This document shows positions 7,263-8,812 of a DNA stretch of 64,000 nt, one piece after another. Within the stretch, counting starts at the first letter, position 1. Each line of letters opens with the position of its first letter. The stretch is from Planctomycetota bacterium. Lineage in GTDB: Bacteria; Planctomycetota; Planctomycetia; Gemmatales; Gemmataceae. The DNA is taken from the NCBI GenBank assembly GCA_021413735.1, contig JAIOPV010000287.1, forward strand, positions 1-64,000, written 5' to 3'. The translations under genes and the position numbers were made by a program. The notes under the pieces are model-generated. The model had not been told where the DNA came from. It saw nothing but the letters and a program-made list of their open reading frames with translations, and did no database searches.

Positions 7263-8354
7263 ATGCCGACGGTCCTGGACTGGAGCCCGACCGTCGATCC
7301 GTCCGAACTCCTGCGCGTAACTCGGGAAGCAATCGCCGCAGGTGCCGTGGTCGTGTTGCCCGGCGATTGCGGATACGTCGCCCTCGTAAACCCCACGAGT
7401 TCACACGCGGTCGAACGCCTCGCAGCCCTCAAAGCCGGCGGTGGCGCTCCGCCAGCCATTCTCGCTTGGGGTGCCGACGACCCCGCCGGACTCGGGCTTC
7501 GCGTCTCGACCATCGGCCGACGTTTGACGTTCCGTGCGTGGCCCGGTCCAATTGTCGTGGCGGTTGCGGGCGAACCAGATTGGCCGTCGGAATGGCCGAC
7601 AACTGTACGAGCGGCACTCACCGCGAACGGACCGGTTCGGTTTCGTTGCCCCGAGCATCCGTTGTGCGAAACGATTATTCCGGCGCTCGACATCCCTGTC
7701 CTGATTGTGGACACGTTCCTCTCCACTGTCGAAGCCGTTTTGGACACCCTGAACGATCCTGACGCACTCGCGGTGTCCGTTGGTGAGTTGCCGCCAGAAG
7801 GTAAACCGACACTCGTGACGCTTCGCGGTGCAAGTTACGAAGTGACCGAACCAGGGCTATTTCCCGCTGAGGAACTCGAGAAATTCGCGGCCAAGCTCGT
7901 GTTATTCGTCTGTACGGGAAACACCTGCCGAAGCCCCCTCGCGGAAGCGTTGGCAAAGAAATTGCTCGCGGATCGTCTTGGGTGCAGTCCAGACGAACTC
8001 CCCACGCGCGGTTTGTGGATGCTCTCGGCTGGTGTCGCGGCTCAGGCTGGCGATCCGGCTGCGGAAGATTCGATCACGGTTGCGGAAGAGTTCGGAGCGA
8101 GCCTCGGCAATCACGAAGGCCGAGTGGTAAACCCGGAACTGCTCGCCGCAGCAGACGAAGTGATTACCATGACTCGGGCACACGCCCAGGCACTGGTAGC
8201 AAGATATCCGGGTGTTGGCCCAACGCCTCGATTGTTGTGCGGGAACACCGACCTGGACGACCCCATTGGGGCCGGACTTGTTGTCTACCGGGCGTGTGCC
8301 CGCACAATTGTAACGCATCTCGAACGATTACTTCCGGAGTGGATAGGCCAATGA
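7263..8354 (+). CDS. fusion of YrdC/Sua5-like domain and low-molecular-weight phosphatase (YwlE-like)
   Basis: 363 residues. Residues ~1-200 have the YrdC/TsaC fold pattern (EAIAAGAVVVLPGDCGYVAL), which in TsaC makes threonylcarbamoyl-AMP for tRNA t6A. Here the canonical PTDT and KxR positions read PGDC and KAGG, so that activity is doubtful. From residue ~210 comes a low-molecular-weight phosphatase with the P-loop CTGNTCR (Cys217-Arg223) and a C-terminal DLDDPIG acid loop. Thr at the position seen in B. subtilis YwlE suggests protein-arginine phosphatase specificity. It overlaps rpiB by 4 bp (ATGA), mirroring the ywlC-ywlE-rpiB order of Bacilli. ATG 7263 was preferred to TTG 7236. Confidence 0.85.
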   Translation: MPTVLDWSPTVDPSELLRVTREAIAAGAVVVLPGDCGYVALVNPTSSHAVERLAALKAGGGAPPAILAWGADDPAGLGLRVSTIGRRLTFRAWPGPIVVAVAGEPDWPSEWPTTVRAALTANGPVRFRCPEHPLCETIIPALDIPVLIVDTFLSTVEAVLDTLNDPDALAVSVGELPPEGKPTLVTLRGASYEVTEPGLFPAEELEKFAAKLVLFVCTGNTCRSPLAEALAKKLLADRLGCSPDELPTRGLWMLSAGVAAQAGDPAAEDSITVAEEFGASLGNHEGRVVNPELLAAADEVITMTRAHAQALVARYPGVGPTPRLLCGNTDLDDPIGAGLVVYRACARTIVTHLERLLPEWIGQ

Positions 8355-8812
8355 AGATTGCCGTGGGCAACGACCACCGCGGGGTTGCCATCAAACACCG
8401 GCTACTCGGCCTCTTGAGGGATCTCGGCCACGAGGTTTCCGATCTGGGGGCGAACGCCCAGGCCAGCGTCGATTATCCGGACTTCGCGATCACCGTTGCT
8501 GAGGCTGTCAGCAAGGGGAATGTTGATCGTGGCATCCTGATTTGTGGCACGGGTCACGGTATGTGCATTGCCGCGAACAAGGTCGTCGGCATCCGTGCCG
8601 CGAATTGCCGTGACATGGTTGATGCCGAACTGAGCCGTCGGCACAACGACTCGAACGTGATGTGTCTGTCGGCTGATCTGATCGGCGAAGAGCAGATCGA
8701 GAAGATGGTTCAGGCGTGGGTCGCGACTGAGTTCGAGGGTGGCCGTCACGCTCGCCGCATCGAGAAGGTCGCCACTTACGAGAAGAACCACGGAACGACT
8801 TCCGGGAGTTGA
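8351..8812 (+). CDS. rpiB: ribose-5-phosphate isomerase B
   Basis: 153 residues, the normal length for RpiB/LacA-LacB. It interconverts ribose 5-phosphate and ribulose 5-phosphate in the pentose phosphate pathway. Visible active-site features are DHRG at residues 8-11, the catalytic cysteine in CGTGHGMCIAANK (Cys65), and NCRDMVDAELSRRHND with His98. The start codon overlaps the previous stop in an ATGA arrangement, indicating translational coupling with the YrdC-phosphatase fusion. The C-terminal tail after GRHARRIEKV is standard. Confidence 0.95.
   Translation: MKIAVGNDHRGVAIKHRLLGLLRDLGHEVSDLGANAQASVDYPDFAITVAEAVSKGNVDRGILICGTGHGMCIAANKVVGIRAANCRDMVDAELSRRHNDSNVMCLSADLIGEEQIEKMVQAWVATEFEGGRHARRIEKVATYEKNHGTTSGS

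Follow-up and report, generated by a model that had tools for sequence, protein, structure and literature searches.

A candidate YwlE-type arginine phosphatase carrying a probably retired YrdC domain in a planctomycete that encodes an McsB-type kinase

One open reading frame in the stretch of planctomycete DNA analysed here (64,000 nucleotides in full, hereafter the window) joins a YrdC-like domain, a fold associated with TC-AMP synthesis, to a small phosphatase whose active-site loop resembles that of the protein-arginine phosphatase YwlE. The arrangement raises two questions: whether the phosphatase half could act on phospho-arginine in a phylum for which our literature search of open-licence PMC papers found no report of arginine phosphorylation or McsB, and what the YrdC half attached to it might do. 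A sequence-only reading of the locus had described both the fusion and an overlap with rpiB, and these are borne out by the features below.

7263..8354, + strand: fused gene for a YrdC-like domain and a YwlE-type phosphatase; open reading frame with an ATG start, 363 amino acids plus stop
7263..7877, + strand: YrdC/Sua5-fold half, residues 1-205 (PF01300 match and structural superposition)
7893..8351, + strand: YwlE-type half of the low-molecular-weight phosphatase family, residues 211-363 (PF01451 match and YwlE superposition)
7911..7931, + strand: P-loop CTGNTCR, read from the sequence, with the codon of Thr221 (the PX5 position) at 7923-7925
8259..8261, + strand: codon of the putative general acid Asp333 in the DP motif (DPIG), an invariant column in alignment A1
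8351..8812, + strand: rpiB, ribose-5-phosphate isomerase B (PF02502, 186 bits; TIGR01120, 162 bits, over the cut-off)

The ATG start is supported by the N-terminus MPTVLDW, which the window protein has in common with a relative that is 68% identical to it (L180). Pfam recognizes both halves: Sua5_yciO_yrdC (PF01300) matches residues 22-149 with 42.1 bits, a partial match limited to the first 123 of the 178 profile positions, and LMWPc (PF01451) matches residues 213-357 with 69.2 bits. The P-loop CTGNTCRSP occupies residues 217-225, and C217, R223 and D333 are invariant across alignment A1. An AlphaFold2 model built with 20 natural homologs is confident along the whole length of the protein (mean pLDDT 92.9, pTM 0.87). 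The stop codon of the fused gene overlaps the rpiB start in the sequence ATGA at 8351, and rpiB lies directly downstream of the fused gene in at least 37 of 56 relatives.

The gene had been read as ywlC and ywlE in a single polypeptide. The fusion part of that claim stands, and the implied working YrdC enzyme does not. Functional TsaC/Sua5 TC-AMP synthases are marked by a KxR/SxN tetrad (PMC10321239, PMC3223725). At the corresponding positions the window protein has K57-x-G59 and D150-x-F152, so the tetrad is absent and the protein does not belong among functional TsaC/Sua5 enzymes; the PTET loop of YrdC is replaced by PGDC, and where Sua5 would carry its SUA5 domain the phosphatase stands instead. 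A complete, separate Sua5 is encoded elsewhere in the genome (contig C112, 206 bits). Judged by these residues, the catalytic role of the YrdC half appears to be lost in the window protein. The half is degenerate in sequence, yet it retains a complete YrdC fold in the model, in which residues 1-210 superpose on Pyrococcus abyssi Sua5 with Z 21.6 and an rmsd of 2.6 Å over 201 residues.

Relatives of the window protein suggest how this state arose, since many of them have an intact fused domain and no other enzyme of this kind. Across 82 genomes we asked how strongly the fused domain matches PF01300 and whether the genome also has a TsaC/Sua5 gene of its own, setting frames of HypF length aside. 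In 51 genomes the fused YrdC has no other TsaC-type gene beside it, and there its score never drops below 110 bits; in the 31 genomes with a separate Sua5 the score ranges from undetectable (0) to 147 bits and is below 100 in 26 of them. A low score thus goes with a separate Sua5 (Fisher p = 1e-16, a value that ignores kinship). The SxN motif is intact in all 50 sequences in which the fused YrdC stands alone, 44 of which have the full KxR/SxN tetrad, as against 1 of 28 in genomes that also carry a separate Sua5. Mapped on the gene tree, these states require about 10 changes of "separate Sua5" and about 9 of "SxN lost"; independent pairs that contrast decay with a separate Sua5 number 10 on the best tree and 4 on supported branches and are concordant, in a comparison that is underpowered (p = 0.125). 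From the SxN counts we conclude that the ancestor probably served both in t6A synthesis and in arginine dephosphorylation. The simplest account is that the synthase of this bifunctional ancestor was displaced several times by a separate Sua5 and that its fold was put to some other use.

Within the family of the window protein, 6 of 29 members lack the YrdC half altogether and keep the phosphatase, and across the family the YrdC half changes more quickly than its partner; compared with L085, for example, identity is 27% in the YrdC half and 52% in the phosphatase half. Both observations would suit a pure remnant that aids the solubility or expression of the phosphatase and has no specific role. 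Against such a remnant, which we consider possible if rather unlikely, dN/dS relative to L180 is about 0.17 for the YrdC half, near the value of about 0.14 for the catalytic half (dS being near saturation for this pair), and most family members retain the length and fold of the domain. The YrdC half is thus under purifying selection, and it most likely serves the phosphatase as a module for structural support, docking or the sensing of a ligand.

For the phosphatase half, the residue of interest is the one at the PX5 position of the loop. A threonine at this position directs YwlE and Staphylococcus aureus PtpB to phospho-arginine, and its replacement by isoleucine increases activity on pNPP (PtpB) or phospho-tyrosine (YwlE) (PMC8001253). 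The window protein has Thr221 here, in place of the hydrophobic isoleucine of low-molecular-weight (LMW) protein-tyrosine phosphatases. The threonine to which the earlier reading had drawn attention is indeed present and is no accident of this one protein, for it recurs in 28 of 30 fused homologs sampled across the phylum, in 29 of 29 members of the protein's own family, and in 91 of 105 fused relatives in a wider, unbiased set, the other 14 having a different residue or a changed loop. The solved structures closest in sequence to this half are of the YwlE type, and residues 211-363 of the model superpose on Bacillus subtilis YwlE (4kk4) with Z 24.6 and an rmsd of 1.3 Å over 143 residues. Among the LMW phosphatase genes of this genome the CxGNxCR loop is limited to the fused protein, the others being ArsC-like or without this loop, so the fused protein is the only YwlE candidate here. 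Taken together with the loop, these features make it likely that the C-terminal half erases phosphate from arginine.

That this half is instead an ordinary tyrosine or broad-specificity phosphatase in which the threonine is incidental strikes us as quite unlikely, though it has some points in its favor. The model is matched by the Thermus LMW protein-tyrosine phosphatase 2cwd (Z 24.6, 32% identity) as closely as by YwlE, so the fold alone does not discriminate, and the 14 of 105 relatives that depart from threonine or alter the loop point the same way. On the other side, LMW protein-tyrosine phosphatases split off in a phosphatase-domain tree at a branch with 100/99 support and the window protein is not among them; its acid motif is DPIG, without the DPY(Y/F) of the tyrosine phosphatases; and the one isoleucine-type enzyme found in the phylum search (L115, with CMGNICRSP and DPYF) sits in a genome without McsB (G004). 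We do not use the same tree as proof of kinship with YwlE, for the domain is too short to settle how the fused proteins relate to it, and the tree does not join them in one clade with YwlE of Firmicutes.

An arginine phosphatase is thus the reading we prefer for this half, and its likeness to known enzymes has limits. With YwlE of B. subtilis and Geobacillus stearothermophilus and PtpB of S. aureus it shares the LMW phosphatase fold (Z 22-25), the CTGNTCRSP loop with threonine at PX5, the DP acid motif, an McsB encoded in the genome and an adjoining rpiB; it differs in being only about 30% identical to them, in having DPIG where they have DPFG or DPYG, in its N-terminal YrdC-fold domain, and in that no CtsR was found in its genome. 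By sequence the phosphatase half matches best the YwlE-like 4egs of Thermoanaerobacter tengcongensis (61.6 bits), which is likewise tied to rpiB; going by its deposited name alone, that protein is joined to RpiB, where the window protein is joined to YrdC. Some relatives have altered P-loops, namely L260 and L264 of family f61 (CTGNTDRS/CAGNTDRS) and L275 and L296 of family f30 (CSANRCRS). In L260, L264 and L275 the YrdC tetrad persists beside the altered loop, the reverse of what the window protein shows. This genome also encodes a small LMW phosphatase-like protein with the degenerate loop CTGNYYRSRHAE (contig C52 of this genome, G000:C52; L004/L114), which occurs in one other genome as well (G326, L139).

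A phosphatase of this kind would require a kinase to counter, and a search of this genome family by family with profiles found the McsB-type gene that the earlier reading had suggested looking for, with its active-site residues intact; the lack of an arginine kinase, which that reading had named as part of what would refute it, is thereby ruled out:

G000:C98:36988-37593: McsB-type protein-arginine kinase gene (PF00217 match, the one such gene in the genome; 355 amino acids)

The kinase lacks the N-terminal domain that phosphagen kinases have. It scores 424.1 bits against the NCBIfam model for protein arginine kinase (NF002194, cut-off 385) and falls below the cut-off of the McsB model (NF053707, 371.6 against 500); over its full length it matches solved McsB chains with 272 bits, as compared with at most 165 for arginine and taurocyamine kinases. 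The NEEDH, CPTN and GEG catalytic residues are invariant in 31 of 31 McsB proteins (this genome and 30 relatives). All 31 also have the allosteric motif R(D/N)xxRA, which reads RNAARA here and has Asp or Asn in the relatives, and which, from structural work on McsB, we take to be its phospho-arginine-binding site.

Directly upstream of mcsB lie two McsA-like genes, a tandem arrangement that is usual in this family; an McsA-like frame precedes mcsB in 29 of the 31 loci. Both McsA-like proteins score below the cut-off of the McsA model NF053706 (130 and 131 bits against 210), with alignments that are near full-length. The genes resemble McsA/McsB of Firmicutes and Chlamydia in the catalytic and phospho-arginine-binding residues of McsB and in the adjoining McsA, and differ from them in the second McsA-like gene and in the zinc finger, where the fourth cysteine is Asp. 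Across planctomycete McsA copies (loci L001:180-1354 on G000:C98, L053-L079 and L140-L169), Asp stands in place of the fourth cysteine of the C-terminal finger (CPHD, CPND and similar sequences) in 70 of 72; of the other two, one retains Cys and one has Glu, the S. aureus counterpart being C105-x2-C108.

The genome further encodes, elsewhere, a ClpC with an N-domain and both GTEH motifs. Mycobacterial ClpC1 also carries GTEH motifs, and no McsB is known there (PMC9604228); the motifs therefore do not discriminate, and the ClpC pockets were dropped as evidence for a phospho-arginine system. A profile search found no CtsR in 21 genomes (this one and 20 relatives), and neither ctsR nor clpC lies within about 1.4 kb upstream or 1.2 kb downstream of mcsB. 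Without CtsR a McsB-CtsR switch of the Bacillus kind is unlikely, and tagging for degradation via ClpC is the more likely use of arginine phosphorylation here. The genes for McsB, Clp_N and CtsR form a standard operon in B. subtilis. Our control genome labelled Bacillus subtilis gave no PF00217, Clp_N or CtsR match; its copy seems to lack or mask the operon, so we did not rely on this genome as a positive control for it. Overall, the planctomycete set resembles the McsA/McsB/YwlE/ClpC system of Firmicutes and departs from it in the YrdC fusion, in the second McsA-like gene, in the Asp of the McsA zinc finger and in the lack of any CtsR found.

Neither the fused protein nor the kinase is a local oddity; both are widespread in the phylum. 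McsB (PF00217) occurs in 280 of 294 sampled Planctomycetota genomes, and in 151 of the 155 of good quality, the 14 genomes without a match being mostly incomplete assemblies; a homolog of the fused protein occurs in 225 of the 294. In the family of the window protein the corresponding counts are 37 and 32 of 41 genomes. Because McsB is near-universal, and its absences fall mostly in incomplete assemblies, the co-occurrence of kinase and phosphatase has little statistical weight, and we dropped it as an argument. Nor are the two strictly paired: a search for a YwlE-like phosphatase beside McsB found none in six members of the family with good assemblies (G294, G301, G307, G322, G315 and G299), nor in G070, G088, G106, G168 and G275 (family f45), G138 and G206 (f76) and G032 (f35). 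The six family members, and families such as f45, have only ArsC-like proteins or no LMW phosphatase at all. Such genomes imply either another arginine phosphatase or a mark that runs one way. A scan of contigs with the pattern CTGNTCRS returned none titled outside Planctomycetota among its best 80 matches, which neither shows nor excludes a YrdC-phosphatase fusion outside the phylum; its threonine counts are biased and were kept out of the tallies given above. An McsA/McsB kinase with a YwlE-type phosphatase is probably standard in Planctomycetota.

We are fairly confident that the window protein is an arginine phosphatase of the YwlE/PtpB type that counters McsA/McsB and carries a retired N-terminal domain, formerly a TsaC/Sua5. 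McsA/McsB would phosphorylate arginines and thereby commit proteins to degradation by ClpC-ClpP, and the fused protein would balance this by removing the mark. By analogy with YwlE, Cys217 would attack the phosphate, which Arg223 and the P-loop would bind, with Thr221 selecting phospho-arginine over phospho-tyrosine and Asp333 acting as the general acid; Cys222 may form a redox switch with Cys217. The N-terminal half would descend from a TC-AMP synthase whose work passed to the separate Sua5 in this lineage, while in most of the phylum the fused domain would still be the only TC-AMP synthase of the cell. It is very improbable that the fused protein is still bifunctional here, with a divergent YrdC half that retains TC-AMP synthase or YciO-like activity, since the complete modelled fold (which also matches 1k7j, a structural-genomics entry of the YrdC/YciO fold, with Z 21.5) and the purifying selection that favor this idea stand against the lost tetrad and PTET loop, the complete Sua5 and the relatives that consist of the phosphatase half only.

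Beyond the arginine phosphatase itself, one may entertain a functional coupling of the two halves, a tentative idea that we think unlikely to hold. Most Planctomycetota would then use one polypeptide for TC-AMP synthesis and for the removal of arginine phosphate, which would link translation fidelity physically to protein quality control. In the lineage of the window protein the synthase half would have become a pseudo-enzyme and would steer the phosphatase, either by sensing ATP, threonine or TC-AMP or by docking on enzymes of the t6A pathway. It would fit such a coupling that TsaD of B. subtilis, which catalyses the following step of t6A synthesis, is reported to be phosphorylated on arginine as a target of McsB/YwlE (PMC7546277).

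The earlier reading had supposed that a planctomycete counterpart of the arginine-phosphorylation system would be new. This holds insofar as the literature search turned up no report for planctomycetes, and it must be tempered: McsAB has already been noted outside Firmicutes, in Chlamydia, where it is partly present (PMC10128030, PMC5177608), and McsB is found in nearly all of the genomes sampled here. An NCBI model moreover already names the planctomycete kinase as a protein arginine kinase. What we describe is thus a well-conserved, little-noticed variant of a known system. Protein-arginine phosphorylation is usually regarded as a Gram-positive system and has so far been shown mainly there. 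If our interpretation is correct, it would extend this modification to a phylum whose cells follow the Gram-negative plan and, together with Chlamydia, more widely to the PVC group. The fusion with a t6A enzyme, repeatedly decayed where a separate Sua5 is present, amounts to a natural experiment: from the pattern one can predict whether a given planctomycete has a bifunctional enzyme or a pseudo-enzyme, and the fusion opens a direct test of a link between tRNA modification and protein quality control.
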